From Quercus robur (lineage: Eukaryota; Streptophyta; Magnoliopsida; Fagales; Fagaceae): a stretch of 64,000 nt of DNA. Each line of letters starts with the position of its first letter. Within the stretch, counting starts at the first letter, position 1. This document shows, in pieces, positions 4,473 through 37,267 of this stretch. Location: positions 23,400,782-23,464,781 of the forward strand of contig NC_065535.1 of the NCBI RefSeq assembly GCF_932294415.1. Reading direction: 5' to 3'. The notes beneath the pieces were generated by a model. That model did not search any database and was not told the origin of the DNA. It saw only the letters and a program-made list of their open reading frames with translations. Both the position numbers and the translations under genes were made by a program.

Positions 4473-5103
4473 TGATGGTGTCACAGAATCCCCAAACCCA
4501 TGACTCGTCCATATGTCTCGTCCAACGAAAGAAGCAACAATAGGCGGAGTATTGCAACCATACCAGCAACCCTCGTCCGTATATGGACGGGCTTAATACC
4601 TCAAGATCTACTCGTCATTTATGGACGACAAGCCTTCCAAGATGATCTCGTCCGTCTTTCACTAAAAGTGGACGAGATCATCCTGGAGGTCTCGTCCATC
4701 CTCATTATGGATGGACTAAACGTGGACGAGCTACTCATGAAGGTCTCGTCCATCTTCATTATGAATGGACGAGTTCATCGGCCGTCCGACCTAAGTAACT
4801 TCCACAGCGGTTACTCCCAATTCTCCGGACTCCTCGACACTGGGAACGGTTACCAAATAGATAACCGTTCCACACATTATATAAGGCTTCTTCGATGAAG
4901 GAAAAAGGTATTCAGACACTTTCTTACTTTTAAGAGAACACTTCTTCGTTACAGAGAGTTCCAAATAACTAACTTGATCATCGGAGGATTTTTGGGCCGG
5001 TCGACACCGGTCCCCTCTGATTCTGTGTCTTTGGTATTACAGGAGATAGCCCGAAGATCAACGTTCAAGTCTTATCAACCCACTGATAACCAAGGAATCA
5101 TCA
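4473..5103 (+). repeat. 5' LTR of element 1 (631 bp)
   Basis: Begins TGATGGTGTCACAG and ends GGAATCATCA, so the tips are TGATG/CATCA. It contains about a dozen CGTCC/GGACG units between 4506 and 4793, in both orientations. A 132-codon open frame is present in both LTRs, but only because the LTRs are identical copies. Confidence 0.95.
4878..4884 (+). promoter_or_regulatory. TATA box of the element 1 5' LTR
   Basis: TATATAA within CACATTATATAAGGC, about 220 nt before the LTR end. This is the likely start region (U3/R border) for genomic RNA. It is present at the same place in the 3' LTR (about 14203-14209). Confidence 0.6.
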
Positions 5104-5105
5104 GT

Positions 5106-5123
5106 TGGCGCCGTCTGTGGGAA
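5106..5123 (+). other. Primer-binding site of element 1
   Basis: TGGCGCCGTCTGTGGGAA starts 2 nt after the LTR. The leading TGG pairs with the tRNA CCA end. The same 18-mer is found in element 2. The exact tRNA species was not determined here. Confidence 0.8.
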
Positions 5124-5162
5124 CGATTGTTTCACAATTTGTTTCTTCGTGACAAAGGGTTG

Positions 5163-8100
5163 ATGGTTCGGACTAGATCACGGGCTACTAGCCCAGGCCA
5201 TCAGGGTAGCAGCAACCCGCATCGCGATCGCCAGTCTGCGCCGGTCATGCAGTCATCTGCCCAACAAGCACAATCTATGGCAGACGCTATGGCGGAGTTG
5301 ACTCGCCAAAACCAAGAATTGCGAATGGAGATTAATATGAGGAGGCAAACACAAGAAGAACGTAAAGGAAGACAAACAGATAGTCACGGTGGAAGAGAGA
5401 ACACCGAAGTTGGAAGTCAGTTCAGAGGCACCACTTCACGAACGGTACCATACTTGAAGGAAGAAATGGACCAAATGAAGAGAGTTATGGAGGAAATGAA
5501 GGAGAATATGAAAAAGGCGAATCCGATAGAAGACTTGGTTCACAGGACAGATTCTCCCTTTACGGCTTCCATCAACGGTCACCCACTACCATCAAAGTTC
5601 AAGTTGCCTTCTCTGGATTCATATGATGGAACACGTGACCCGTTTGATCATATAGCCACTTTCAAAACCACCATGCATCTTCAAGGAGTGCCTGATGAAA
5701 TAATGTGTAGGGCCTTCCCAACCACCCTTAAGGGTTCGGCGCGAGTTTGGTTTAGCAAACTACCTCCGAATTCGGTGAGTTCTTTTGAAGAGTTGAGCAA
5801 GTTATTTGTTAACAATTTCATTGGAGGACAAAGGCACAAGCGTTCCTCGTCCAGTTTGTTGACAATAGAGCAGGGAGAGAACGAAAGCCTTCGGTCATTT
5901 ATCACCCGTTTTAACAGAGAAGCTCTCAGTGTGGACGAAGCAGATGATAAGCTTCTACTGGCAGCCTTCCACAATGGGGTGAATTCAGATCTGTTTATAC
6001 ACAAGCTCTATGAAAAAGAGCCCCAGTCCATGGCCGAACTCGTCCATTCGGCTCAGAATTTTATGAATGCAGAAGATGCAATCATTGCTAAGAAGAGGAA
6101 GAGGTCCGAGAGAATGGACGCAAATCCCAGTCGTCAGCATGAGCAAGGTACTCGTCCAAAGAAGGGACGGATGGAGGAAAGGAGAGATCGAGAAAGTAAG
6201 AAGCCAGGCCCTCCAGTACGGAACCAGCAGTATACCCCTTTAAACGCCCCACTTGAGCAAGTCCTTATGCAAATCAAGGATGATCCTTCCTTGAAGTGGC
6301 CAGAGAAGATGAAGGGTGATCCCAATAAGCGCAACAGGAACAAGTATTGTCGCTTCCATAGGGATCATGGTCATGACACGGACGAGTGTTTTGACTTGAA
6401 GCAGCAAATTGAAAATCTCATAAGGCAAGGGAAGTTAAGGGGTTTCCTTGGACGAGACCAGAGGGACGAGAAACAGAAGGGAAAGATGGAAGATTCATCG
6501 CGACCACCACTCGGGGAGATAAGAGTCATCATTGGAGGAAGTACAACTGGCCAGTCGTCCAAGTCCAAGAAAGCATACTTGAAGGTAGTACAGAGCGTCC
6601 AACTTTCTGGACGATCACCAAGAGCAAGATCCACGGACGAGCGGGCAATCACTTTTACGGACGAGGACGCCAACAGAATTCATCACCCTCATGATGATGC
6701 CCTCGTCATCTCTTTACTAATTGCAAACTACACAACCAGAAGAGTGCTTGTGGACAATGGAAGCTCAGCAGACATTTTGTATTATCCAGCCTTTCAGCAG
6801 ATGAGATTAGGACGAGACCAGCTCCGTCCAGTGAACTCCCCCCTAGTAGGCTTTGGGGGGATGAAGGTGCAACCAGTGGGTACCATTTCCCTATCCGTGG
6901 TAGTGGGGGCATATCCACAACAGATTACCAAGGATGTGAACTTCCTTGTGGTAGATTGTCCATCCTCTTACAATGCCATCATTGGGAGGCCAACTTTGAA
7001 TAGTTGGAAAGCTGTTACCTCTACTTACCACTTATCAGTCAAGTTTCCAACAGAACACGGGGTAGGACGGGTACAAGGTGACCAACTGGCAGCAAGAGAG
7101 TGTTACTTGGCCATGCTGGCCATGGATGAACAAGTTCAAGCAATGAACATTGAAGAAAAGAGGGTTGTAGCAGAACCTACTGAAGCATTGGAAGATATTT
7201 CCTTGGATGAAGATAACCCTGAGAGGTGTACCAGGGTGGGAGCAGATTTAGAAGAGAAGATTAAGACAGACCTCGTCCAGTTTTTGAAGAAAAACATCGA
7301 CGTGTTTGCGTGGAGTCACGAGGATATGCCGGGTATAGACCCTAGTGTCATTACCCACCGTTTGAATGTATGTCCTTCCTCCAAGCCTGTGCGGCAAAAG
7401 AAGAGGGTGTTTGCCCCTGAGAGAGATAATGCAATCAAGGACGAGGTTCAAAAGCTGATGGTAGCAAAGTTCATTCGGGAGGTGTACTACCCGGATTGGT
7501 TGGCCAATGTAGTAATGGTCAAAAAAGCGAATGGCAAGTGGAGAATGTGCGTGGACTTCACTGATCTGAACAAGGCTTGCCCAAAGGACAGCTATCCGTT
7601 ACCGCGCATTGACCAGTTAGTAGACTCAACTGCAGGCCACAAATTGCTTAGCTTCATGGATGCCTTTTCAAGATATAATCAGATAAGAATGGACGAGGCT
7701 GATCAAGAGAAGACATCTTTTGTCACCAGTCAAGGCTTATTCTGCTATAAAGTGATGCCGTTTGGTTTAAAGAATGCAGGGGCGACATACCAGAGGTTGG
7801 TCAACCACATGTTCCGTCCGCAGATTGGGCGGAATGTGGAAGTCTATGTAGATGACATGCTGGTGAAAAGCCAGGACGAAGGAAGACATCTAGATGACCT
7901 GCAGGAGACATTTGAGACGTTGAGGCAGTATCACATGAAGCTGAATCCTAGCAAATGTGCCTTTGGAGTATCGTCAGGGAAATTCCTTGGCTTTATGGTA
8001 TCCCATAGGGGAATTGAAGCGAATCCAGATAAAATTCATGCAATACTGGACATGAAGCCACCGCAAAATACCAAGGAAATTCAATCCCTCACTGGACGAG

Positions 8101-10367
8101 TCGCTGCGCTTAACAGGTTTGTCTCTAAGGCTACTGACAAATGTTTGCCATTTTTTAAGGTTCTCAAAAAAGCATTTGAATGGACCGACGACTGTCAGAG
8201 AGCTTTCGAAGATTTGAAGGTATACCTTACCATGGCACCGCTGCTGAGTCCATCAGTGGAAGGAGAGGAACTATATTTGTACCTAGCGGTAACACCACAT
8301 GCAGTGAGCTCAGCATTGATAAGAGAGGAAGATAAAGTACAAAGACCTGTGTATTATACAAGCAAGGCATTGAAAGGAGCGGAAGGACGATATCCACAAA
8401 TGGAGAAGTTGGCCTTTGCACTAATCACAGCTTCAAGGAAGCTGAGGCATTATTTCCAAGCACATGTCATTAATGTTATGACAGATCATCCTCTCAAAAA
8501 GGCAATGAATAGACTGGATGCTGCAGGACGATTAATCCAGTGGGCTGTGGAGCTAAGTGAGTTTGATATCAGATATCAACCAAGGCATGCCATAAAAGCT
8601 CAAGCCCTAGCAGATTTTATTGCAGAGTTTACCCCAAGTCATAACGAGGCAGAGGACAGCAAGAGATGGATCGTCCACGTGGATGGTTCGTCTACACGGC
8701 ATGCAGGAGGAATTGGTGTGGTCCTGCAGTCCCCGGAGGGAGACAAGCTGAAACATAAAGTCCGTCTACAATACCAAACGACAAACAATGAAGTCGAATA
8801 TGAAGCCCTCCTCAAAGGGCTAGAATTGGCGAAGTCCGTGGAAGCCAAGTCCATACGTGTCATGGGAGATTCCCAACTGATCATGGGGCAAGTGAATGGG
8901 ATGTATGAAGCGAAGGAAGGACGAATGAAGAAATACCTTGGTAGGGTGATGCGCCTTGTGAAAAGGTTTGAAAAAGCTGACTTCGTTCAAATCCCCAGGG
9001 AGGAGAACGTGGAAGCTGATACTATAGCAAAAGAGGCCCCAGCAGATGAATCATTAGAGAAGTCAGATGAAGTTCAGTATATGCCAAGTATAGATGCCCA
9101 GGAAGTACAGCAGGTAGATAACAAAGAGGATTGGATGACTCCCATTATATCATATTTGAAAGATGGACGATTACCAGAAGAAAAGGACGAAGCCAGAAAG
9201 GTGAGGGTGAGATCAGCTAGATACGTCCTTATGAATGAAGTGTTATACAAGAGAGGTTTCTCACAACCTTACCTTAGGTGCCTAGCTCCGGACGAAGCAA
9301 ACTACGTGCTGAGAGAAGTTCACGAAGGGGCCTGTGGCAATCACTCAGGAGCCAGATCACTTGTCCACAAGATCGTCCGTGCAGGATATTACTGGCCGAA
9401 CATGCAAGCTGATGCAAAAGCATATGTTAAAGTCTGCGACCAATGCCAGCGATTTAGCAATGTCCCCAGGCAACCGTCGGAATACCTCACCCCAATGGTA
9501 GCACCGTGGCCCTTCGCACAATGGGGATTGGATATCTTGGGTCCCTTCCCTTTGGGAGTAAGGCAGATGAAGTTTTTAGTTGTGGGCATCGATTACTTCA
9601 CCAAATGGGTGGAGGCAGAACCGTTGGCAAATATCACACAACAGAATGTTAAAAACTTCGTGTGGAAGAACATTGTTTGCAGATTTGGAGTGCCGAGGGT
9701 ATTGGTGTCTGACAACGGACGGCAATTTGACAATGCACTCTTCAAGGACTTTTGCTTACACTTTGGAATTCAGAACCATTACTCCTCACCTGCACACCCC
9801 CAAGCCAACGGCCAAGCTGAAGTAGCAAACCGATCCTTGTTGAAAATCATCAAAACTCGGCTTGAGGGGGCAAAGGGAATATGGCCAGATGAATTACCAG
9901 GAGTTTTATGGGCATACAGGACCACTGTGAGGACCCCTACAGGGGAGACTCCTTTCAAGTTGGCCTATGGAAGCGATGCAGTCATACCTGCAGAAGTGCA
10001 TATGGCTAATCACAGGGTGATGACGTATCAAGACAAGGATAATGAGGACCAGCTTCGTCTGAACCTCGATCTAATAGACGAGGTAAGGGCAAACGCAGAA
10101 TACAGGGCAGCAAAGTATAAGAACCTCATGGCTAAGCAGTATGATGCGATGGTGAAGCCTAGGCGTTTCCATATAGGAGATCTCGTCCTGAGAAAGGTCT
10201 CTTTGTCAACCAAGAACCCAGCCCATGGGAAGTTGGGCCCAAACTGGGAAGGACCCTATAGAATAATCAACTGTAAAAGGTAAGGATCCTACTACCTGGA
10301 GGCCCTGGACGGGAGAAAATTGGAACATCCTTGGAATGTGGAGCACCTGAGGAGGTACTACCAGTAA
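5163..10367 (+). pseudogene. gag-pol: Ty3/gypsy Tat-type gag-pol polyprotein with one premature stop
   Basis: A single frame of 1734 codons starts at ATG 5163 (MVRTRS..., matching MVLTRS in element 2) and is open except for TAA at 10281-10283, 27 codons before the shared end motif HLRRYYQ. Domains in order (approximate residues): gag with LKGSARVWFSKLPPNS (190-210) and zinc-knuckle-like CRFHRDHGHDTDEC (400); aspartic protease with VDNGSS (530); reverse transcriptase with CVDFTDLNKACPKDSYPLP and YVDD (895); Ty3-type RNase H (1035-1150); a second archaeal-type RNase H with HVDGSS, a YEALLKGLELA helix and GDSQL (1170-1290); integrase with HHCC finger (1385-1430) and D-D-E core (DILGPF, SDNGRQF, QANGQAEV; 1455-1555). 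RT reads AFSRYNQI where element 2 reads AFSGYNQI, a glycine-to-arginine change in a conserved motif. The product would copy and integrate the element. The stop removes only the extreme C terminus, so partial function is conceivable. Confidence 0.95.
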
Positions 10368-11194
10368 GAGTTAACCTATGGACGAGACTTGGGTCTTATT
10401 TGTCTACTAGCGTACTATTATGAGTGATGCTGTTTGATACTACTATGTTTGGTATTGTTTGTGTGTGAAGTTTGAAACTATGATTTACTTTTTATAGTTG
10501 TGTTGTGGTTATGGACGAAGTCATGAAGTATGTATTTATTAAATAAAAAGGCATCAGTGTGCATATGCCTTGTCTGTAAACAATATTTATGTTATGTACA
10601 AAATATTGTGTGAATTCTCCATGATATTATCGTCCAATTCAATCCTCAAGAGGGTTGAAAGATCCAAGACGAACAAAATCTCTGGACGCAGAGATGTAAC
10701 GTCTAAATTTTCTTGAATAAAAGAAACCACATCCATACTCGTCCAACTCATGGACGAGGTAAAGCCAACTGAAACAATCCAAATTCTGGACGAGACAAAA
10801 AGTTGGCAAAATAAGTAGACGGTATGAAAAATTAGTTTGCAAGTCTTAAGACGAATCAAGCTAATTAAAAATACTACCTGCTAAGACGAGTTAGACTACA
10901 AGAAAAATATGTATTCTCGACATGGACGAGCTAAGAATAAAATAGCTTAGCAGCATCCGTCCATGCAAAGAAAATGAAATCACTCGTCCATTCAAAGAAA
11001 ATGAAATCATTTATCCATGCAAAGAAAATAAAACTTCATTCAAAGGGTGGACATCCTACGTCCAAAAACCCTTGATTAGTTTGAAAAGTAGAAATAGTAT
11101 ACTTAAAAAACCCGTCCTAAAACCATGGACGAGTATAATGTATTCTTGTTACATAAAGAAGGTCCAAAAACAAAGGACCAAACACAAAAGTTAC

Positions 11195-11226
<32 letters not shown>

Positions 11227-11268
11227 AGAAGAAAGAAAAAGCAAAGCTACAAAGTTTAAAATCCCGTC
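10368..11268 (+). other. Spacer between pol and the antisense gene, element 1
   Basis: Non-coding, rich in GGACGAG/CTCGTCC units, with a run of 29 A at 11195-11223 about 50 nt from the antisense stop codon. The equivalent spot in element 2 also carries a homopolymer that is A-rich on the element's sense strand. Confidence 0.6.
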
Positions 11269-13443
11269 CTAAGAAGGGGGAGCATTCACTGTAGGCTCGT
11301 CCTGAGGAGGCTGAGTGCTGGCGTCGTCTTCCACGTTGACATCATCAGAGCCAGTCTGGAGGAGAGAGCTTGTGGCAGCAGCAAGGTTAAGCTTGATTGT
11401 GCTGAAGTCAACTTCAGGAAAGTTTTCAACAGCGTCCATTCTGAAATCTTCAAAACCAGCTGCATAATTGCGATCCAAAGTGTCTGTATACTCTTTGGAC
11501 GACTTGAACTCAGCCACAGCGTCCTCTCTTGCCTTGGAAAGACGAGCATTCAACTCATTGTTCACCTGTTGTAAGTGATCAATGCGCGTCTCCTTCTCCA
11601 ATGCATCCGTCCTTAGCTCCTCAATCAGCTTGTTATGCTCTTTGACCTCGTCCTTAGCTTTTTCAGCAAACCCAGCCCATTTCTTACAGTCAGCGTTCAC
11701 CTCCTGAATCCTCGTCTCCAACAAGACTCTCGTCTTGTCCAGCTCCGTTGCCTGTCTAGACGCTGCTATAAACTTCGACATGGCCTGTGAACAGAGAACA
11801 ACATAGAATGATTAAATGAGGAAAATTTAATAACTAAACAAGGACGAGGGATACTGGCATACCTTGAAAAGGTCATGGACGCCTGAATGCTCAAATTCCT
11901 TCAAGCCCATGTTATAGCACATGTTTATATCCTCGTCCTTGACGGCCATCTGGAACCGTTCCCAAGCCAGGTCTTCATTTGCAATAATATTCATAGAAGG
12001 CTGGGACGAGCCAGGCATGGTAGATCTGGCCACAGGAGTTCTGGGAGGAGTCTTGGACGGGGTGGACTCAACTGGAGTGGACGAGTCCACATCAACTATT
12101 TGGACGGCAGGCTGAGACGAGGGTGGTTTGGACTTGACCACCTTGGACGAGCTTTGTTTAACCCTTTTATCTCTTCGACTGGAGAGCCCATCCAGATCAA
12201 TGTTCTTAGGCAAGAACTTTCTTTTGTCCCCAGCCGTTGGACGATCCTGGGCTTGACCCTCAGGACGTTTCCCCTCTCCTGCGATCTCTTTTCCTCGGTT
12301 CTCTTTCATTGTTGACATTCCTAGGACGAGATGAACAAATGAGGAATGTATACATAAAAAAGAAAAAAGAAAGGAAGGTTAAGTTAAAAACTTACTTTTT
12401 CGCACAGTGACTTCGTGGGCTATAGCTTCGTCTGAAGGCTCGGGACCTAAACCCCACTTGGCCAGACGCCTAAGCGTGACAAGGGAATGGAAGCTCCTGT
12501 CTGCGTGTAGACGGGCCCTGTGGACGCGGTCACGGTGAAATTTGCTCAAGGACGGACGTTTGGCAGCTACAAAACAATGAACAAACAAAGGTTAGAAATT
12601 GTAAATGTACTACATAGAAGAATAAAAGTAGACGAGGGGAAGGGACGTACCTTCTGGACGAAGGTTCCCCAGGTCCCCAGTGTAAGGAGGAAAGGGATCC
12701 CTGCCAACGTCCACAGGGTTCCCAGCCCAGAAGCCTGAAATAAAAATAAACTCCGTCTTCCACTTCCTATCAGACGAAGCTAGGGACTTGATCAACCTAC
12801 AATCATTCCCTCTAGCAGTAAATTGGTAAAAACCTTCAGACTGGCTTATGGCAGAAGGTTTATAACAATAAAGGAACTCGTCCACTGTAAGAGGACGGTC
12901 CCTACCAAAAACTTCCCTCCACAAAATTTGCATGGAGATAATTAATCTCCATGCGTTGGGATTGAATTGACAAACACCTAGACCTAATTTGACTAGTAAC
13001 TCCCTAGCAAAGGCATTTAAAGGAAACCTAAGGCCACCTAGGAAGTAAGATTCATAGACGCCTATTCCAAAACGGGGCTCACAACACCATTCTCCACGGA
13101 CGGGTAGCCTAGGGTTAAACTCGTCTGGGATTTGATACCAGGACCTAAGGTTACCTAACCTCTGTTCGTCCGTCTTAGAATGGACGCCTACAGCGCAACT
13201 GAAGACGGTTTCTACCTCGTCCGTTGGATTGGACGGAGAACCAGCTTGAGAGCCAGAAGCTCTCCTAAGCTGTTCTTGGACGACTTCAATAGGGAGCCCA
13301 GGGGCCCCAGAAGAGTAGTTCTCGTCCGTGCTTCCTCCACTCTCATCACTAGCACTGCTAGAGCTAGACCTATCACTAGTATTATCACAATACTCGTCTA
13401 TAACCTTATCAAGGCTATCTGTGGACGAGGAAGCAACAGACAT
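11269..13443 (-). CDS. Intact four-exon antisense gene carried by element 1 (putative gypsy-type transposon protein, 645 aa)
   Basis: Exons: 12651-13443, 12396-12566, 11863-12320, 11269-11784. Introns of 84, 75 and 78 nt have GTACGT, GTAAGT and GTATGC donors and AG acceptors; phases 1, 1, 0 keep the frame open to the stop. The N terminus (about 1-90) is serine- and acid-rich. Residues about 100-265 carry RSWYQIPDEFNPRLP, NAWRLIISMQILW and LTVDEFLYCYKPS, which resemble the plant 'putative gypsy type transposon' (Transposase_28, PF04195) domain. Exon 3 has a basic nuclear-signal-like stretch (SSRRDKRVKQSSSK), and exon 4 a long coiled coil (about 475-575) and an acidic tail. It corresponds to the antisense extra ORFs reported between pol and the 3' LTR in Tat elements. 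The molecular role is unknown. An isolated TATA-like box lies about 160 nt upstream. Alternative: a captured host gene. Confidence 0.85.
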
Positions 13444-13602
13444 CCCTAAGAAGAAACTTAAACCTAAAGACGAGAAAAAGAAGAGTACCTGGCTCTAGAC
13501 GGAAGAAGACTCTAGACGCAGAGAACTCTTAGACGAGGCTCTAGACGATGGATGTCAAGGAAGAAAATTTCTGGAATGAGGAGGGTCAAGGGAGGCATTC
13601 CA

Positions 13603-13611
13603 CTATTTATA
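13603..13611 (-). promoter_or_regulatory. TATA box of the antisense gene, element 1
   Basis: The minus strand reads CCTATAAATAGTGG, close to the plant TATA consensus, 160 nt upstream of the antisense start codon and between that gene and the 3' LTR. Element 2 has an equivalent TATATAAA at the corresponding site. Confidence 0.6.
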
Positions 13612-13783
13612 GGATGCTGACCTGGGTAATCGAAACGACCCAACCAATACAGAAGCAACATGTGGCATCAATCTTGGAAAAATAAATCGACAGAATCAGT
13701 CTCTAATAAGAAAAGGACACGTGGTACAATAATTGTTAACCAATTGTGCCCAAGAACGTTCAACCTTTTGGACGACCCACATG

Positions 13784-13797
13784 GACGAGGGGGCAAC
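13784..13797 (+). other. Polypurine tract of element 1
   Basis: GACGAGGGGGCAAC directly precedes the 3' LTR. Element 2 has TAGGGGGCAAA in the same place, so GGGGGCAA is the shared core that would prime plus-strand synthesis. Confidence 0.7.
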
Positions 13798-14428
13798 TGA
13801 TGGTGTCACAGAATCCCCAAACCCATGACTCGTCCATATGTCTCGTCCAACGAAAGAAGCAACAATAGGCGGAGTATTGCAACCATACCAGCAACCCTCG
13901 TCCGTATATGGACGGGCTTAATACCTCAAGATCTACTCGTCATTTATGGACGACAAGCCTTCCAAGATGATCTCGTCCGTCTTTCACTAAAAGTGGACGA
14001 GATCATCCTGGAGGTCTCGTCCATCCTCATTATGGATGGACTAAACGTGGACGAGCTACTCATGAAGGTCTCGTCCATCTTCATTATGAATGGACGAGTT
14101 CATCGGCCGTCCGACCTAAGTAACTTCCACAGCGGTTACTCCCAATTCTCCGGACTCCTCGACACTGGGAACGGTTACCAAATAGATAACCGTTCCACAC
14201 ATTATATAAGGCTTCTTCGATGAAGGAAAAAGGTATTCAGACACTTTCTTACTTTTAAGAGAACACTTCTTCGTTACAGAGAGTTCCAAATAACTAACTT
14301 GATCATCGGAGGATTTTTGGGCCGGTCGACACCGGTCCCCTCTGATTCTGTGTCTTTGGTATTACAGGAGATAGCCCGAAGATCAACGTTCAAGTCTTAT
14401 CAACCCACTGATAACCAAGGAATCATCA
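13798..14428 (+). repeat. 3' LTR of element 1 (631 bp)
   Basis: Same length as the 5' LTR and no difference found by eye. It is followed by the second CATGT target copy at 14429-14433. Confidence 0.95.
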
Positions 14429-14697: not shown

Positions 14698-14706
14698 TAC
14701 ATTCTA

Positions 14707-17459: not shown

Positions 17460-17468
17460 TACATTCTA

Positions 17469-27021: not shown

Positions 27022-27026
27022 GGAAT

Positions 27027-27696
27027 TGATGATACTGAAAACAATACCACCAATGAGTCGCACGCTCCTCACTCGATCGCAAATGGCACCTACACAACGA
27101 AAAGGAATAACCTAGCAGAGAGCACCGGTGTGGTACCGGCCGAATACCCTCCGAAGGTCAAGTTAGAACTATTCTCACTGCTCTAGAGTGCTAGAGAGGG
27201 TAAAATTACGCGTACCTTGGTTTGTGAGGGTGCTTGGGTTTTTATAGTAGAGAGGGCTGACCCTCTTTTCCTTGGAGTAGAAGTCTTTTCCTTATCGGAG
27301 TCTTCTTGGGCGTATTTTACGGGATCCTTTCCATATAGGAGTCCTTAGGTTCCATGAAACGTGGGGAGCAAGTTATTTATTTGTACATGTAAACGTGCGG
27401 AATAGGCATTTCATAGACTGACGCCGTCAGTCTATGTTATCCCGTCAGTCTACACTTATCCCGTGACCTTCAGGATGTTCGGCTTTATGTGTTCTTTTGC
27501 CTTAGGTCACCGTCAGCCTCGAAGGTATGCTGACGGCAAGACCGTCTAGTCACCCTTGTTAAGTCTGCATCTTCACCATTGCAAGGCATGCACCGTCGCC
27601 CTTGTTAAGTATGTGCCGTCACCCTTTTTAGGTCTTCACCGTCGCTCTTGTCAGTTATGTACCGTCACGCTGGCCAGCATAATTTTATCCTCATCA
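27027..27696 (-). repeat. 3' LTR of element 2 (670 bp)
   Basis: On the plus strand it runs from TGATGATACTG to ATCCTCATCA. It has about nine CCGTC/GACGG-type units, mostly between 27420 and 27670. Confidence 0.94.
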
Positions 27697-27710
27697 TTTG
27701 CCCCCTACTC
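27697..27710 (-). other. Polypurine tract of element 2
   Basis: The minus strand reads GAGTAGGGGGCAAA immediately before the 3' LTR, sharing GGGGGCAA with element 1. Confidence 0.7.
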
Positions 27711-27877
27711 CATAACTCCGTCACCTTCTGTACTGACGGGCTATGGAGTTTGTTTTCAAAAGAGGCAGAAACATTGTTTGCGTGGATCTGAGCATTTAAT
27801 GCCTTGGACAGGTGGCTCGTTCCCATTGGCCTCACTTCTGACGAGACGTCGCTTCGTCTTCCGCGCCATTTTTTCCA

Positions 27878-27885
27878 TATATAAA
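27878..27885 (+). promoter_or_regulatory. TATA box of the antisense gene, element 2
   Basis: CATATATAAACAG lies 240 nt before the antisense start codon. A possible 5'-UTR intron (28020-28124, CCGGTAAGT donor, GTCAG acceptor) would lie between. The position corresponds to the TATA box of the element 1 antisense gene. Confidence 0.55.
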
Positions 27886-28124
27886 CAGCGTTTCCAGTCA
27901 TTTTTTCACTATTTCATCCTTGCTGAACTTGTGGAGAGACAGACCGTCGCTCACCTTCCGTCAGCTTCACTTCCGTCAGTTTATCCGTTGCTGTAGCCGT
28001 CCAGAAGGCTTCCATACCGGTAAGTTTTCATCCTCTCTCCTTCCTTCTTCTTTTTATTTTTGCCTCATTAGTGAGGCCGTCAGCCTAGGTACTTAGTTTG
28101 AACCCGTCACTTGTAGGTAGTCAG

Positions 28125-30334
28125 ATGTCGAGTGACGCGTCTTATGACGAGTCGTCAGTCCGCGAAGGAGCGGGCTACGACGAGACCTTTGGTTCTGGAA
28201 ACGAGTCAGACTTCTCCCTCCCGTCAGAGAGAGAGTCGTCAGCCCAATCTCCTGACGGCAATGAGAGTTTTGCTGAGGGAGATGATGAGGGAAGAGGGGA
28301 TGAAAATGACGGGGGTGGAATGGATATTGACGGAGAGAATAGTGACGGGGAGGAGAGATCCAATGAAGGAACCTCGGAGGGTACCGTAGATAACCGTCCC
28401 TTCATTCTTCCTGAGGATTGGGCCGTCAACAGATTTTTGCCTGGGATGAGTGGTTAAGTTTTTAGGGAGTTACGGATCCGTTATCAAATCCCAGACCACA
28501 TCCCCCTCCGTCTCCCTAGAGAGGGTGAGAGGTGTTACTCCGGGCGGACAGCGGACGTCGGCATGTATGACGCCATGTTTGCTGCCGGCCTGAGGTTACC
28601 GTTGACGGCTCTGCACCGTCAACTAGCTGACTTCCTTGGAATATCCGTCACCCAGGTTGCCCCAAATGCCTGGAGGACTTTTATAGGAGCTGAAATCCTG
28701 TGGGGCAGCTTTAGTGGAGGGCACCGTCAGCTTACACTCGGAGAATTCTTTTATTGCTATAGGCCTCATCACATTGCCTCGTCTAAGGGGACTTATCATT
28801 TTAATGCCCGAGAGAAAGGGCTACGGTTAGTGTCAGATATGCCTGACTCAAATAGGAACTGGAAGAGTAGGTATTTTTTCGTTGAAGGGACGGACTGGGT
28901 GTGCCGTCAGGAGGAGTGGGCGACGATGCCCAGTGGTTACTTTGACAATACCTGGGCCTTTGTCAAGGATTCAGGTTAATCCCGTCACCCATGAGGCTCG
29001 TGCGTTTTTTTGAAGTGACGGTGCTAACACTTGTTATTTTTTTCTTTTTCCAGCTTATACCCGTCCGCATATAACTGACGAGCAGGAGGAGTTCATCCAT
29101 CGGATTCTAGAAATTCCTTTGGAGGACCGTAAGTGCAGGGATTTGATCACCCTTGACACCCTCTATTTATACTGTGGGGGCCCAGATCCGTCAGCGGAAG
29201 CTCGTAGGTTGGAGGAGTTTGCGCGACGACGTAAGTAGACTTTTATTTTGCCGTCAGTTTCATTCTTTCCGTCACTTTTCTAAAGTGTTTTCTTTGTGTT
29301 GTAGAGATGGAATCTGCGAAGCAAAGGATACGGGCTGCCGCAGCTCGTCAGAAGGAGGAGAGGAAGGCCAAGGAAGCAGGGGGGGAAGCCTCGTCAACCC
29401 CCACTGTCGTCGCCAAAGTGGCGAAGAGGAAACCTGACGGGAGTGACGGCCGTCCCTCAAAAAAGCCTGCCGTCACTCCGTCAGTCGAACCATTGAAGGA
29501 AAAGTCCCCTCCGACGTCTGGCCATGGTGCGGGAAAGGGGGTGATGACTTCCACTGGTCCCGTCACTGAGGGTCCGTGCCGTCTCCTAACCCACAAAGAA
29601 TATGCCGTCGGGGAGGTTGAATCCCTGATAAAACCGACGGACATGGAGCCCTGTGATCAAGTAGGGACGGAGGATTTAGGGGCGTCGGCCCTCTTTGATC
29701 TCTCCAGGGTAAGTTTCTCACATTTTTGGGTTGAACATGCCGTATCTTGTTTTGGCGTACTTTTTATCTGACGGATACGCTCTTTCAAGCCTTGGTTCGT
29801 GTCAAAGCCCTCCGTGACCGTTGTGTGGCGAAGGAGGGGGTCGTCAGTCGAGTTCGCAGCCATAACAAGAACTTGCTGAATCAGCAGGCTCAGTATAAGG
29901 AAGCCGTCCGTCTCCTTAACCAGGAGCTGCAGGAAGTTAAGGAGAAACTGACGACGGTCAGTGGCGAGAACGTCAAGCTCCAAGGAGAGGTGACGGCTCT
30001 GGAGGAGAAGTTACAGACGGCGGGGGCTGACGCGATTGGAGACTTCAAAACGTCGCAGTCATTTATCGACTCATGTGGTCAATATTACGGCACTGGGTTC
30101 GATGACTGCCTTCGACAGGTCGCGTCGGCCTTCCCGGAGCTGGACTTATCTGGGATTTCAATGGATGATGGAGACGACGTCTCTCTTCAGCCAGAACCTA
30201 CTCCGGAGCATGACGGCTCGGTAGTCCTGGCTCAGCCTGCTGCTAATCCTACAGCTTCAGATTCTCCAACCGTTATCGTGGATGTCGAAGACCATCAGGC
30301 TGACGGAAACCCTGCTGACGCTCCTGCTGCTTAA
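28125..30334 (+). pseudogene. Decayed four-exon antisense gene carried by element 2
   Basis: Exons by comparison with element 1: 28125-28974, 29054-29230, 29305-29708 and about 29790-30334; introns 79, 74 and 81 nt. Phases 1, 1, 0 match element 1. Exon 1 is acid- and serine-rich at first, then has the Transposase_28-like part (RYQIPDHIPLRLP, NAWRTFIGAEILW, LTLGEFFYCYRPH). Exon 2 has DLITLDTLYLYCGGPDPSAE, matching SLVTLRRLAKWGLGPEPSDE of element 1. Exon 3 has basic KKPA/KRKPDG stretches and exon 4 a coiled coil (LLNQELQEVKEKL and following). Defects: TAA at 28455-28457 inside exon 1; the first donor is weak (GTTAAT); and the exon 4 acceptor is one base short of the phase needed. The function is unknown. 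It is nested head-to-head against pol transcription. Confidence 0.82.
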
Positions 30335-30349
30335 TTATGGCTATGTAAA

Positions 30350-30375
30350 TTTTTTTTTTTTTTTTTTTTTTTTTT
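30350..30375 (+). repeat. T26 homopolymer after the antisense stop, element 2
   Basis: The run begins about 15 nt downstream of the antisense stop codon. On the element's sense strand it is an A tract, as at 11195-11223 in element 1. Confidence 0.8.
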
Positions 30376-30592
30376 GAAAATAGTTGTAATCTTTAGACGG
30401 TCTTTTGGAGAACAGTTGTAATTTTTTAAACAGTTGTAGTTTTAAACAGTTGTAATGTTTAAGTGCCCTCGTCGTTTATGTTCGTATTTCATTTCCGTCG
30501 CTTTTATCTCTTTATTTTATACGAAATTGTTGGAAATTCCCGTCTGCTTGGAATACGTCAGCTCTTTAACCTGTTGAAAACCCCGTCGGTTT

Positions 30593-30868
30593 TTTGACCG
30601 TCGGTTTACAATTGTTGTCTTTTTGACTTCTTTGTCGATCCGTCAGTTTTGAGGATCTTGTCCCTAAGATGGTTATTCCATCATGTTGCATCGTTAGCCT
30701 TTTGGCCTTTTTGGGCCGTCAGCCTTTTTTTTGACCGTCGGTTTACAATTGTTGTCTTTTTGACTTCTTTGTCGATCCGTCAGTTTTGAGGATCTTGTCC
30801 CTAAGATGGTTATTCCATCATGTTGCATCGTTTAGCCTTTTGGCCTTTTCGGGCTGTCAGCCTCTTTG
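30593..30868. repeat. Tandem duplication of a 138-bp unit in the element 2 spacer
   Basis: TTGACCGTCGGTTTACAATT recurs at 30593 and 30731, and the sequence that follows is nearly identical (differences include GTTAGCC/GTTTAGCC and TTTTGGG/TTTCGGG). The rest of the spacer 30376-31302 is also rich in CCGTC units and holds no gene. Confidence 0.85.
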
Positions 30869-31302
30869 GCCGTGGCCTTGGATGTTTTTTGACATCGTTC
30901 TAGCCCGTCAGTTTTTAGGCGTTGATGTCTTTTGACATCTTTGTCGATCCGTCGGCCTTTTAGCTTAGCCTTTTCGGACCGTTGTTTCTTTGGCTTTTTA
31001 GCCTTGGTGTTTTCTTTTACATCTTCATTGGTCCGTCAGGTTTTTCTTTAGTCCGTGTGTTATGGACTTTGTCGTTTTCGGGCCGCAAACTTAGCGGACC
31101 ATCGGAAAAAATACACTTCAGCAATTTCTGAATAAAACTCCTCTTATTGCCATGTATTTAAATAAAAGTAATTAAAACCAAATTCTGCCCCTTGGGCTAA
31201 AAAAGTAATGGTGCGAAAAAACTGGAATAAATGATAAATCTGAGGAGTTAAACTATAATTTGCTGAAAAATAAAAAAGAAGTTGGTCTTCATGCTGCTGC
31301 TC

Positions 31303-34300
31303 CTATTGGTAGTACTTCCGAAGGTGCTCGGTGTTCCATGGATGTGGTAGTTTCTGTCCCTCCAATGTTTCAAGGTGGTAAGTACCTTTTCTCTGCCACG
31401 ACGAAACTCGGTAAGGACCTTCCCAGTTGGGGCCGAGTTTCCCTTGGGTAGGGTCCCTAGCGGCGCCCATGACCTTTCTAAGAACAAGGTCTCCGACTTG
31501 GAAGTCTCTGTGTCGGACCCGAGAGTTGTAGTATTTGGCCATGCGATCCTGGTACCTAGCGAGCCTTTGTTCTGCTGCTGCCCGGATCTCGTCCACTAGG
31601 TCAAGCTGTAGTCGCGTAGCCTCATCGTTTTTGCTCTCATCGTGGTTGTGTACCCTGTAACTTGCGAGTCCAACTTCGGCCGGGATGACTGCTTCGCTTC
31701 CGTACGTCAGGCGGAACGGAGTCTCTCCTGTGGGTGTTCTTGCCGTCGTCCTGTATGCCCATAGTACACTTGGCAATTCTTCGGGCCATATACCTTTTGC
31801 CCCCTCGAGCCGAGTCTTGATGATCTTGAGCAAGGATCGGTTCGTGACTTCGACCTGTCCATTAGCTTGAGGGTGGGCGGGGGAGGAGTAGTGGTTCTTT
31901 ATTCCCAACTGTGAGCAAAAGTCCCGGAAATGATCGTTGTCGAACTGTCTCCCGTTGTCCGAGACAAAGACTCTAGGAATGCCAAACCTGCATACGATGC
32001 ATCTCCAGACGAAGCTCCAAACGTTTTTTTCAGTAATCGTGGCTAAAGCTTCAGCTTCCACCCATTTCGTGAAATAGTCGATGCCTACTACCAGGAATTT
32101 CAGCTGCCGCATAGCTGTAGGGAACGGTCCCATAATGTCTAACCCCCATTGTGCGAACGGCCTCGGGGCCGTCATCGGGGTCAGCTCTTCGGTTGGTTGT
32201 CTAATGATATTGCTGAACCTTTGGCATTTGTCACAGGCCCGGACGTAGGCTTCGGCGTCCTTCTGCATGGTGGGCCAATAGTAACCCGCTCGCACAAGCT
32301 TGTGTACCAGCGATCTGGACCCTGAGTGGTTTCCGCAGATTCCTTCATGCACTTCCCTCATCACGTAGTCTGCCTCTTCCGTACCCAAGCATCTTAGATA
32401 TGGTCGGGAGAAACCTCTCTTGTACAGGACGTCTTTTATCAGGACGAACCTCGCCGCCTGAACTTTAAGTTTTCTTGCGGCTTCCTTCTCGTCTGGTAAG
32501 ATGCCGTCTTTTAGGTACGCGACTAACGGCGCTGTCCAGCTGCTGTCGGAGTATATTTCCTGCACGTCACCGATATCTATCAGCGGGGAAAGCTGTACGA
32601 AGGAGAGTACATTACCAGGGACGACCATTCGTTCTGCTGAGGCGGCCTTGGCGAGACGGTCTGCTCGCTCGTTTTCCTCTCTGGGAATCTGGATGATTTT
32701 GGCTTCTAGGTCGCCTACTCTTGCTCTTACTTCATCAAGGTACTTCTTCATTTTTTCGCTCTTGCACTCGTAGTCTCCATTTATCTGGTTGGTGATGACC
32801 TGTGAATCGCAGTAGACGACTACCCTTGCGGCTCCTGCTGCTTTGGCGAGGTCGAGTCCTGCTATCAGTGCCTCATATTCTGATTCATTGTTGGTGGCGG
32901 GAAAGTTTAGACGGACCATACATTCAATGGTGTCTCCTTCAGGTGATAGTAACACAATGCCGGCCCCTGCGGCTTGCCTGTTGGATGATCCGTCCGTATG
33001 TATGCTCCATTGAGGGGACTCTGCTGCCCCCTGGTCCTCGTCATGGGTGAACTCAGCTATAAAGTCGGCGACAGCCTGTCCCTTGATGGCGGTCCGCGGA
33101 CGATACTAAATGTCAAATTCGCTCAGTTCGATCGCCCATAATGCCAGTCGGCCCGCGGCCTCGGGGCTGCTCATTGCTCGCCGTAAAGGCTTGTCAGTCA
33201 GGACATTTACCGTGTGAGCTTGGAAGTACGGTTTGAGCTTTCGGGCTGCCGTAACCAATGCGAAGGCAAGTTTTTCCATCGGCGGGTATCTTTCCTCGGC
33301 ACCGCGAAGCGCTCGGCTTGCGTAGTATACGGGCTTTTGCACTCTTTCTTCTTCTCTCATCAGGGCTGCGCTAATAGCTGCGGGGGAGACGGCCAGATAG
33401 AGAAAAAGCTCTTCTCCCGGCTGCGACGGGCTCAACAATGGTGGAGAGGAGAGGTAAATCTTCAATTCTTCGAACGCTTGCTGGCATTCGTTGGTCCATT
33501 CAAAGGATTTTTTCAGTGTCCGGAAGAAGGGCAAACATTTGTCCGTTGCTCTCGACACGAACCTGTTAAGTGCCACTATTTTTCCATTTAGGCTCTGCAC
33601 CTCCTTTATACTTCTTGGCGGTGTCATTTCCATAATGGCTCGGATCTTATCCGGGTTCGCCTCGACTCCTCTTTGAGACACCATGAATCCCAAGAATTTT
33701 CCTGCCGTTACTCCAAAGGCGCACTTCCCTGGGTTGAGCTTCATATTGTAGGAGCGGAGTGTATCAAATGTTTCTTTGAGATCTCCTAGATGATCTTCCT
33801 CCCTCCGGCTCTTAACTAGCATGTCGTCCACGTAGACCTGGACATTCCTCCCAATCTGTTGTGCGAACATTTTGTTCATGAGCCTTTGGTATGTTGCGCC
33901 TGCGTTCTTTAAGCCGAAGGGCATGACCTTGTAACAGAATAGGCCTTGGCTGGTTATGAACGACGTTTTCTCCTGGTCGGCTTCGTGCATTCGGATTTGG
34001 TTGTATCCCGAGAAAGCGTCCATGAAGCTCAGCAACTGGTGTCGGGCCGTGGAGTCTACTAGGACATCGACCCTGGGTAGGGGGTAGCTATCCTTGGGGC
34101 AAGCTCTGTTAAGGTCGGTGAAGTCCACACACATCCGCCATTTCCCGCTCGCTTTCTTCACCATTACTACATTTGCTAACCAATCGGGATAGTACACTTC
34201 CCTGATGAAGCTTGCTTCCCGTAGCTTTCTGACTTCCTCTGCTATGGCTCGGTCTCGCTCCGGGGCAAACACCCTCTTCTTTTGTCTGACGGGTGAAAAG

Positions 34301-36537
34301 GCGGGCGACACATTCAGCTTATGCACCATGATTGAAGGATCTATTCCTGGCATATCTTCATGACCCCATGCGAATACGTCTTGATTTTGCCTAAGGAATG
34401 TTATGAGCTCTTGACGGGTCGTGGGGTTAGCGAGTGTTCCAATTTTGGTCGTTCGGCCAGGATCGGAACTGTCAAGGGGTATTTCTTCTAGCTTCTCAAC
34501 CGGCTCCATTACCGTCCGGTGCTCTTCTATACTTAAAGTCTGAACCTGATCCTCCATTTCCACCATGGCTATGTAACATTCGCGCGCGGCCATCTGATTC
34601 CCGCGCAACTCCCCTACTCCGTAGTCAGTTGGGAACTTAATCATCAGGTGGTAGGTGGAGGTTACTGCCTTCCATGAGTTGAGCGTGGGTCGCCCGAGGA
34701 TAGCGTTGTAGGCTGATGAGCAATCAACAACCAAGAATGTCACGTCCCTGGCTATCTGTTGGGGGTAATCACCCACAATTACGGATAAGGTGACTGCGCC
34801 CAGTAGGAATACTCGGCTCCCGCCGAAGCCGACAAGCGGGGCATTTGTTGGGATCAGTCGCCCCCTGTCGATCCTCATCTGCTGGAACGCGGTGTAGTAT
34901 AAGATATCTGCTGAACTGCCGTTGTCGACGAGCACCCGGTGCATATTGTAATCTCCTACACGCAAGCTGACGACGAGTGCGTCGTCATGTGGATGGTGAA
35001 GGCGTCGTGCGTCTTCTTCTGAGAATCCGATCACGGGACCTTCTCTTCTTGCTATCTTCGGCACGGCTCCCGTCAGTTGAACATTCTGTATCATCCGGAG
35101 ATAGGTCTTACGGGCCTTCTTGGATGACCCGGCAGCGGTTATCCCTCCTACGATCATCCTTATATCCCCAATTGGGGGCCTTGGTCGCTCATTGTCCCGT
35201 CGGGGGTGCTGGTCTTGTGCGGGGGGATCCGCCCTCTCTTTGCTAACGAATCTCTGCAGCTTTCCTTGTCTAATAAGGGCTTCAATCTGCTGCTTGAGGT
35301 CATAGCAATCTGCTGTGTCGTGGCCGTGGTCGCGGTGGAATCGGCAGTACTTATCTCGTGAACGTTTGTTGGGGTCACTCTTCAGCTTTCCTGGGAACGT
35401 CAGCGATTCCTCGTCCTTGATCTGCATAAGGACTTGATCTATCGGGGCTGTTAGCGGAGTGAAGCTTGTGAACCTTCCCCCCAGGGGCTTAGGGCGTCTT
35501 TCGTCCCTTCGGTCCGCGGTTCTTGCCTTCTTTCGGCTTTGGTCCTGCCGACCGTCTTCCTGCCGTTCTCTTTTTCTAGGCCTCTCTTCCCGAGCTAAGA
35601 GTGCATCTTCAGCGTTCATATACTTTGTGGCACGATAAAGTACTTCTGACATGGTTTTTGGGTCGTTTTTGTATATGGAAAACAAAAACTTGCCCTTCTT
35701 CAAACCATTTGTAAATGCCGCGACAAGTATCTTGTCGTCAGCTTCGTCGATCGAGAGCGCCTCTTTATTGAAACGGGAGATGTAGGCTCTTAGAGTTTCG
35801 TCTTCTCGCTGCTTCATACTCATCAAGCAAGCCGTAGATTTCTTGTACCGATGGCCTCCAATAAAGTGTGCGGTAAACTGAGCGCTGAGTTCCTTGAAGG
35901 TGCTGATGGAGTTTGGGGCCAGTCGACTGAACCAAATTCTTGCCGCGCCCTTTAGCGTTGTAGGGAAGGCCCTACACATGATGGCGTCCGCTACTCCTTG
36001 AAGGTGCATTAGGGTTTTGAAGGTCTCCAGGTGGTCCAGTGGGTCCTTGACCCCGTCATAACTGTCTATCTGCGGCATGCGGAACTTGCTTGGCAACGGG
36101 TAGGAGTTGACGGTAGTGGTGAACGGTGAGTCCGTTCGGTTGACAAGGTCGTCAAGGTCGCTCGATACTCGTCCCTTGAGAGCATTCATCATAACCTCCA
36201 TTTGTTCCTTCATGGCTTGCATCTCCGCGAGAACGAGGGGCGGAGTGGTTTCCGCGAGGGAGGGGATGCTCGTGTTCTGTCATTCAGGTTTGCTCGGGGC
36301 GTTGCTGGCCTGGGGTCCTTCCTGGTTTCTCCTGTCAGCGCTGGTTCCTTCCTGCTCTGCTCCTTGGTTGTTGGGAGCTGCATTCTTCTGTCTCAGTTGC
36401 TCTTCTAGGTCGTGATTTTGCTTTGTGAGGCGCTCCACGGCGGCGGCGAGCGTCCTCACCTGTCTTTCAAGCGCGGTTGTAGGAGTTTCTTCTTCTTGAA
36501 TGTCGTTGTTGGTCGCCATTGAGCGAGTGAGTACCAT
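31303..36537 (-). pseudogene. gag-pol: Ty3/gypsy Tat-type gag-pol polyprotein with two in-frame stops
   Basis: One frame of 1744 codons from ATG 36537 (MVLTRS) to the stop at 31303-31305 is interrupted only by TGA at 36280-36282 (early gag) and TAG at 33106-33108 (after the first RNase H). Domains follow element 1: gag with LKGAARIWFSRLAPNS and CRFHRDHGHDTADC; protease VDNGSS; RT with CVDFTDLNRACPKDSYPLP, AFSGYNQI and YVDD; RNase H ending EFDI; second RNase H with YEALIAGLDLAK; integrase with CDKCQRF, DIMGPF, SDNGRQF and QANGQVEV; and the end HLRKYYQ. The TGA sits where CGA would fit and the TAG where CAG would fit, both one C-to-T change. Without readthrough no full polyprotein is made, so mobility would need a helper element. 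Confidence 0.95.
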
Positions 36538-36577
36538 GTAACTCTCTTGTCTTGAAAGCGAGAACGTGCTAAAGCGA

Positions 36578-36595
36578 TTCCCACAGACGGCGCCA
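36578..36595 (-). other. Primer-binding site of element 2
   Basis: The minus strand TGGCGCCGTCTGTGGGAA is identical to that of element 1 and lies 2 nt from the 5' LTR. Confidence 0.8.
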
Positions 36596-36597
36596 AC

Positions 36598-37267
36598 TGA
36601 TGATACTGAAAACAATACCACCAATGAGTCGCACGCTCCTCACTCGATCGCAAATGGCACCTGCACAACGAAAAGGAATAACCTAGCAGAGAGCACCGGT
36701 GTGGTACCGGCCGAATACCCTCCGAAGGTCAAGTTAGAACTATTCTCACTGCTCTAGAGTGCTAGAGAGGGTAAAATTACGCGTACCTTGGTTTGTGAGG
36801 GTGCTTGGGTTTTTATAGTAGAGAGGGCTGACCCTCTTTTCCTTGGAGTAGAAGTCTTTTCCTTATCGGAGTCTTCTTGGGCGTATTTTACGGGATCCTT
36901 TCCATATAGGAGTCCTTAGGTTCCATGAAACGTGGGGAGCAAGTTATTTATTTGTACATGTAAACGTGCGGAATAGGCATTTCATAGACTGACGCCGTCA
37001 GTCTATGTTATCCCGTCAGTCTACACTTATCCCGTGACCTTCAGGATGTTCGGCTTTATGTGTTCTTTTGCCTTAGGTCACCGTCAGCCTCGAAGGTATG
37101 CTGACGGCAAGACCGTCTAGTCACCCTTGTTAAGTCTGCATCTTCACCATTGCAAGGCATGCACCGTCGCCCTTGTTAAGTATGTGCCGTCAACCTTTTT
37201 AGGTCTTCACCGTCGCTCTTGTCAGTTATGTACCGTCACGCTGGCCAGCATAATTTTATCCTCATCA
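36598..37267 (-). repeat. 5' LTR of element 2 (670 bp)
   Basis: Same length and borders as the copy at 27027-27696. A TATA-like CTATAAAAAC on the minus strand near 36809-36818 is the likely promoter for genomic RNA. Confidence 0.94.

Follow-up and report, generated by a model that had tools for sequence, protein, structure and literature searches.

What does an intact, intron-bearing gene do on the strand opposite to gag-pol in a retrotransposon, and how has it lasted there? These questions arise from a 64,000-nucleotide stretch of the Quercus robur genome (contig NC_065535.1, positions 23,400,782 to 23,464,781 of the forward strand; hereafter the window), which holds two Retand-type long terminal repeat (LTR) retrotransposons, elements A and B, each with an antisense gene. 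We found that the antisense gene of element A is a real, intact, intron-bearing protein gene, that its protein is under purifying selection, and that both elements are rich in a word with a CGTC core whose flanking bases differ by family. Judging from the sequences and from analogy with known systems, we put at about an even chance the reading that the gene encodes, through spliced transcripts, a self-recognizing DNA-binding accessory protein that counters silencing of its own family or regulates it.

The antisense gene of element A

The gene occupies the minus strand between pol and the 3' LTR of element A, as follows (aa, amino acids; nt, nucleotides).

12651..13443, minus strand: exon 1, with an acidic N terminus and a Transposase_28 match at aa 130-184
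12567..12650, minus strand: intron 1, GT-AG, 84 nt, phase 1
12396..12566, minus strand: exon 2, basic, with the strongest constraint (ratio of nonsynonymous to synonymous differences, pN/pS, of 0.03 between the subfamilies of genomic copies)
12321..12395, minus strand: intron 2, GT-AG, 75 nt, phase 1
11863..12320, minus strand: exon 3, basic and then Ser/Pro-rich, with CGTC words kept despite synonymous divergence
11785..11862, minus strand: intron 3, GT-AG, 78 nt, phase 0
11269..11784, minus strand: exon 4, with a probable coiled coil, the C terminus and the stop
13606..13611, minus strand: TATA box that lies 168 nt ahead of the ATG and marks the putative antisense promoter

The four exons join in phases 1, 1 and 0 into 645 codons and a stop, with junctions (12651/12566, 12396/12320 and 11863/11784) identical to those proposed in an earlier sequence-only reading of the window. 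All three introns are GT-AG and 46 to 53% T, and an in-frame stop is met in each when it is read through. The same reading had credited the gene with a promoter, a basic region and a coiled coil; we saw the TATA box and a basic stretch in exons 2-3, but for the coiled coil the Pfam matches were weak (E value of 0.12 and worse). The hidden Markov model search that it had recommended for the 645-aa product did return Transposase_28 (hereafter TRP28) at aa 130-184 (E value = 3.2e-5), although the score of 24.5 bits is below the curated cut-off of 26.2. At a threshold of E up to 1, TRP28 was matched by all 16 domain sequences of our alignment A4.

The host element is laid out as follows.

4473..14428, plus strand: element A, a Retand-type LTR retrotransposon (self-BLAST, target-site duplication, domain order)
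4473..5103, plus strand: 5' LTR, with 12 CGTCC/GGACG words
5202..10283, plus strand: gag-pol region (start as searched), a single open frame with 35 CGTCC words
10284..11268, plus strand: end of pol beyond the stop and spacer to the antisense gene; a 27-bp tandem repeat at 10958-11033 contains CGTCCA
13798..14428, plus strand: 3' LTR (self-BLAST)

The two LTRs, 631 bp each, are 100% identical with zero differences by self-BLAST, and the duplication CATGT flanks the element on both sides. Its domains run Retrotrans_gag, RVT_1, RT_RNaseH, a second RNase H (RVT_3/RNase_H), Integrase_H2C2 and rve. Because the second RNase H sits between RNase H and integrase, and because an antisense open reading frame (ORF) matches Transposase_28, we classify element A, on domain order and antisense ORF and by criteria from PMC6317226 and PMC11963269, as a young member of the Retand lineage in the Tat clade (Ty3/gypsy). 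The claim that the host element is young and belongs to Tat was thus borne out. The order RNase H, second RNase H, integrase is also that of Ogre (PMC6317226), and the region from pol to the 3' LTR measures about 3.5 kb (10284-13797), with 2.9 to 6.6 kb given in a survey of Retand elements (PMC11963269). As had also been claimed, the element's own pol carries a stop: gag-pol is open up to one in-frame stop about 28 codons short of the homologous pol end. This stop (within 10250-10370) is present despite the identical LTRs.

Selection on the protein and the age of its introns

We searched the 785.7-Mb genome by similarity to intron 3 of A, a route by which an intronless copy could not be found, and obtained at least 40 places including the window itself. 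The other 39 were taken; one (L016), with an alignment in exons 3-4 only, was left out, and the set is the window copy plus 38, or 39 copies. All 39 copies retained GT-AG at each of the three introns, and the whole gene was open in 33; L019 and L042 had exon frameshifts and four others had stops. Intron lengths varied irrespective of frame (84/88, 72-76 and 78/80 nt), and exon lengths, except in L019 and L042, differed by 18 or 12 nt.

Among the 33 open copies, a restriction that lowers the ratio somewhat, pooled pN/pS (Nei-Gojobori) was 0.20 for the 136 pairs within subfamily 1, 0.28 for the 120 pairs within subfamily 2 and 0.13 for the 272 pairs that span the two. Median ratios of nonsynonymous to synonymous substitution rates (dN/dS), for pairs with dS >0.01, were 0.19, 0.27 and 0.11, respectively. 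Differences between the subfamilies at codon positions 1, 2 and 3 were 0.029, 0.026 and 0.113. The value near 1 that the sequence-only reading had named as refuting its case thus lies far above the 0.11 to 0.28 found across the genome's copies.

Purifying selection extended to distant relatives. Besides A and B, we examined 18 further TRP28 loci (L048-L065; the 8 best-scoring and 10 picked for variety, of 150 scored matches), some of which form clades C and D of the domain tree. The dN/dS of the TRP28 domain was 0.04 to 0.13 in clades C and D, excluding the pair L062/L063, which had zero amino acid changes; dS in clade D reached 1.7. Between A and B it was 0.23 at a dS of 2.5, and three other between-clade pairs were saturated. 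With dN/dS far below 1 and mostly frame-preserving exon indels, it is the protein itself that is selected. The antisense RNA might instead act by itself, through double-stranded RNA or regulation by small interfering RNA, with the reading frame incidental, as has been raised as a possibility (PMC7264820); set against the dN/dS values over the 33 copies and those of the clade C and D domains, and against the indel pattern, we find this hardly credible, and the codon pattern already largely refutes it.

Synonymous divergence between the subfamilies was uneven along the gene (pS = 0.36 in exon 3 and 0.08 in exon 4), and L042 paired introns 1 and 3 of subfamily-2 length with a different exon 3. 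Because of this jump and the mixed make-up of L042, we read the copies of A as mosaics (L042; exon 3 of L027-L047), probably produced by template switching or gene conversion.

Element B allowed the introns to be compared at greater distance.

27024..37267, minus strand: element B, Retand-type, inverted relative to A; its LTRs differ at 3 of 673 positions
28125..30334, plus strand: antisense gene of element B, with exons at 28125-28974, 29054-29230 and 29305-29708 and exon 4 from about 29790

The antisense genes of A and B share 45% identity across aa 99-237, and introns 1 and 2 of B match those of A in position and phase (1, 1). The B gene has one in-frame stop at 28455 (exon 1), and its intron-3 acceptor is off phase by one base. 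Its gag-pol is broken by stops, and no 5-bp target duplication is present at the BLAST-defined ends of the element (TTAGG / GGAAT). In A, B and the 18 other loci, introns were chosen independently by splice-site score wherever the neighboring exons could be anchored. Intron 1 had phase 1 in 11 of 19 loci scanned; the misses were L048, L054, L056 (no candidate), L057, L058, L062, L063 and L064, and in L058, L062 and L063 the phase-1 site ranked second. All 9 loci scored for intron 2 gave phase 1, and 8 of the 9 scored for intron 3 gave phase 0, with B the exception. Several loci fall within one clade, and these counts are therefore not all independent; the phases nonetheless recur in relatives with only about 30 to 45% identity to A. 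These sequences indicate that the introns of the antisense TRP28 gene are old and common to divergent families.

How could introns persist in an element that replicates through RNA? Since they lie opposite to the genomic RNA strand, they would not be lost via genomic RNA and would pass reverse transcription unchanged, as the sequence-only reading had suggested. Exact exon-exon junction 18-mers of A occurred in 0 of the 39 copies taken from outside the window, which, in copies selected by intron 3, is consistent with such a passage.

A run of T follows soon after the stop codon on the antisense coding strand of both elements (29 T in A, 11195-11223; 26 T in B, 30350-30375). Its length was not kept among 9 copies of A found by exact string: 4 had 8 to 11 T, and 5 had no run of at least 8.

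A CGTC-core word that differs by family

CTCGTCC/GGACGAG occurred 52 times in element A, 3 times in B and not once in the 43.8 kb of the window outside both, and CCGTCA/TGACGG occurred 54 times in B, once in A and 4 times in the window outside both. In A minus its 3' LTR, we counted 97 CGTCC against 9.8 expected from dinucleotide shuffles, 37 on the gag-pol strand and 60 on the opposite one. The words lie in the LTR, gag-pol, spacer, exons and introns, most of them dispersed (median spacing of 55 nt), and CGTC was 7.3-fold above expectation in the spacer (10284-11268). Synonymous-codon shuffles gave 7.0 CGTCC in the antisense coding sequence (CDS) of A, where 30 were observed, and 12.0 in gag-pol, where 35 were observed in 5 of the 6 frame-and-strand combinations; neither count was reached in any of 500 shuffles. 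The CCGTCA excess of B sits in the antisense gene, spacer and LTR; synonymous shuffles gave 4.4 against 20 observed, a comparison that is approximate given an exon-2 piece out of frame, and the two gag-pol pieces had 1 against 0.8 and 5 against 1.7 (reached by 5 of 500). The family-specific motif exceeds what base composition and, in most tests, coding would yield.

The excess extended across the TRP28 loci. CGTC was the most over-represented of 88 4-mers in 17 of the 20 (A, B and the 18 others) and ranked second or third in L048, L054 and L065; the top 6-mer contained CGTC or GACG in 18, the exceptions being L048 and L054. By comparison, CGTC was the top 4-mer in none of 10 copia RVT_2 loci (rank 22-53, z of -0.6 to 0.7), which were the best-scoring of 150 and may represent few families, in none of 12 random 4-kb pieces (rank 5-80), and in none of 12 bins of the window (rank 5-85, z up to 1.6). 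Within the exon-1 domain, none of 300 synonymous shuffles reached the CGTC count for A, B, L048, L058 and L060-L063, and 2 to 26 of 300 did so in seven other loci.

Could such words arise without any reader, as a by-product of mutational or gene-conversion bias or of short tandem repeat expansion? Part of them do lie in tandem repeats whose units contain the CGTC word, at 10958-11033 (27 bp, spacer of A), 4661-4770 (54 bp, LTR of A) and 27549-27668 (23/46 bp, LTR of B), and the constraint tests are weak and reversed in exon 4, as detailed below. However, dispersal of most words, an excess over synonymous shuffles in both coding regions of A and, for 8 of 20 loci, within the exon-1 domain, and the lack of excess in copia loci of the same genome all speak against a by-product, which we consider unlikely.

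We also evaluated whether the word itself is conserved. Between the subfamilies of A, retention was 0.906 for CGTCC words, 0.780 for other CpG words and 0.756 for non-CpG words, although the single word of intron 2 was lost. Synonymous third positions differed between subfamilies by 0.037 inside CGTC versus 0.113 (outside/overall), the contrast being strongest in exon 3 (0.010 inside versus 0.255 outside) and present in exons 1-2 (0.013 versus 0.092). That the word is kept by constraint has moderate support.

The bases beside the core follow the family. A has T-CGTC-C and B has C-CGTC-A, and counts of CGTCC to CGTCA were 54:2 in A, 8:54 in B, 176:69 in clade C and 134:201 in clade D, where L048 was the sole locus with CGTCC above CGTCA (6 to 4) and L054 was even (8 to 8). 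The domain tree pairs A with B and clade C with clade D, and the flank is therefore not simply inherited along the tree.

These flanks bear on another explanation, in which the gene is real but its protein does something else, and the words are read as enhancers by a host factor such as a TGA-type bZIP protein (TGACG). TGACG is the TGA/as-1 core, and it is included in the words of B and clade D; words also stand in the LTRs and, in B, between the antisense gene and the LTR. But A and clade C carry CGTCC and not TGACG, the words of A also lie in introns, gag-pol and exons distant from promoters, and the flanks change with the family. We regard a host reader, too, as unlikely.

Candidate function and comparison with known systems

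Self-recognition would draw these observations together. Retand retrotransposons may have kept the antisense gene for a long time as an accessory gene. A promoter of its own, within the element, would drive transcription against gag-pol, and the three introns would be spliced from the antisense mRNA. The product, with an acidic N terminus, a TRP28 domain, a basic middle and a probable coiled coil, would most likely be a nuclear DNA-binding protein. DNA binding is predicted for the TRP28 domain (PMC11963269), and Grande gene23 is reported to have its own promoter and a nuclear product (PMC7264820); the same source describes the transcription of Retand antisense ORFs as weak and ubiquitous. The protein would recognize the CGTC-core word on both strands of its own family, LTR and coding exons included, and with the bases beside the core differing by family, each protein would mark its own copies. 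Its likeliest role would be relief of family silencing or control of family transcription, the part that VANC plays for VANDAL. We offer more tentatively, as something we would not yet bet on, that Retand has independently evolved self-recognition and anti-silencing of the VANC/VANDAL kind, with the spliced antisense TRP28 protein binding the family's CGTC-core word and with word and protein diverging together.

The two systems agree in several respects. VANC, too, is an element-encoded protein; a short family-specific word occurs throughout the element, partly in tandem repeats, although most of the CGTC words here are dispersed, and related VANC proteins pair with different words. VANC21 binds YAGTATTAY at sites in non-coding regions (PMC5735166), VANC6 targets AGTTGTCC/AGTTGTAC (PMC10398659, PMC5735166), and VANC binding accompanies loss of DNA methylation over the element (PMC5735166, PMC10398659). 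In contrast, VANDALs are Mutator-like (MULE) DNA transposons and Retand elements are retrotransposons; and for VANC binding and demethylation have been demonstrated, whereas for the TRP28 protein they are proposed. We draw the likeness as one of working pattern and not of membership.

Several observations weigh against self-recognition. Unlike the non-coding sites of VANC21, the word lies in coding exons and gag-pol (30 and 35 CGTCC in the antisense CDS and gag-pol of A). The gag-rt and rh-int parts of B have a small CGTC excess (1.3- and 1.5-fold), and the exon-1 domain has none in 5 of 20 loci (L049, L052, L054, L056 and L065; 82 to 254 of 300 shuffles reach the count). Two random pieces, L070 and L071, have a mild excess of 1.9- and 1.6-fold, the highest among them (z = 3.4 and 2.4). 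In exon 4 the constraint is reversed (synonymous change of 0.101 inside CGTC versus 0.035 outside), and random placement of the words gave weak results (P value of 0.02 to 0.11 for exon 3 and 0.01 to 0.07 for the whole CDS) in a test on 8 of 16 open subfamily-2 copies with a common history. Since CGTCC and CGTCA both occur on both sides of the tree, few independent changes underlie the agreement between flank and clade. Two AlphaFold models were weak (predicted local distance difference test score of 56-57), with no match to a solved fold. Finally, PMC12844716 names Retand among lineages of rather uniform methylation, which gives no hint of escaping copies; the same paper poses as an open question whether the Tork and Athila extra ORFs shape methylation.

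The sequence-only reading had guessed at a regulator, a packaging factor or a silencing suppressor. In a role of the packaging kind, or in Rev-like export, the protein would bind the element's RNA and the words would be RNA signals; retroviral accessory proteins act so, and the middle of the protein is basic. With CGTCC on both strands (37 and 60, as above), the words are a better fit to double-stranded DNA, and we think RNA binding highly unlikely. Because the word stands on both DNA strands and is common to families, self-recognition at the DNA level is favored over RNA packaging.

HBZ of human T-cell leukemia virus type 1 (HTLV-1) and APH-2 of HTLV-2 are likewise antisense accessory genes of retroelements; we know of no family-specific dispersed word in these viruses. 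Their proteins are nuclear (both genes as cited in PMC11963269), but they belong to unrelated animal viruses with the antisense promoter in the 3' LTR (PMC7264820), whereas the TATA box here lies inside the element. The gag-pol intron of Ogre is likewise a spliceosomal intron in a retrotransposon of the Tat clade, but it lies on the sense strand and is spliced from part of the transcripts only (PMC6317226, PMC12786077), whereas the introns here are antisense and would be unexposed to splicing of the genomic RNA.

That extra antisense ORFs are known from Tat elements is correct, and antisense TRP28 ORFs mark the Retand lineage (PMC11963269). Silene Retand ORF4, Grande gene23 and RIRE2 share with our gene the antisense strand, the position between pol and 3' LTR and Transposase_28, and the survey likewise describes a long pol-3' LTR region with tandem repeats (Vicient 2025, PMC11963269). 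That survey predicted single ORFs; in its text, "intron" is absent and "splic-" appears in the reference list only, whereas we find three introns, with phases that recur across families, and a dispersed family-specific motif. In passages of PMC11728184 and PMC12786077, aORFs and sense introns are reported, but neither antisense introns nor a word of this kind. The antisense TRP28 ORF is therefore known as typical of Retand, and its introns and the family-specific word are apparently new: in our literature searches we found no account of introns in Retand antisense TRP28 ORFs, although papers on Grande gene23 and by Steinbauerova may treat splicing, and none of a family-specific word in Retand elements.

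Elsewhere in the window, inverted repeats with 80% identity, each about 270 bp long and 2.2 kb apart, adjoin element A at 14705-17461 and may belong to a transposon with long terminal inverted repeats, and a 389-bp foldback at 26291-26679 matches its own reverse complement at 87.5%. Host gene exons on the minus strand encode a mitochondrial carrier protein (PF00153; 43867-47553) and a cellulose synthase (PF03552; 61120-63230).

Of the recently active Retand clusters in the survey, 97% had antisense TRP28 ORFs (PMC11963269), and surveys restricted to single long ORFs would overlook or shorten genes such as this one. The gene illustrates a possible route by which a retroelement may retain spliceosomal introns over the long term, on the strand opposite to its genomic RNA. 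The family-specific word turns the function of TRP28 into a direct question, namely, whether the protein binds its own word and affects its own family only. If it does, a sequence-specific means of countering silencing like that of VANDAL would exist in LTR retrotransposons, a large component of plant genomes.
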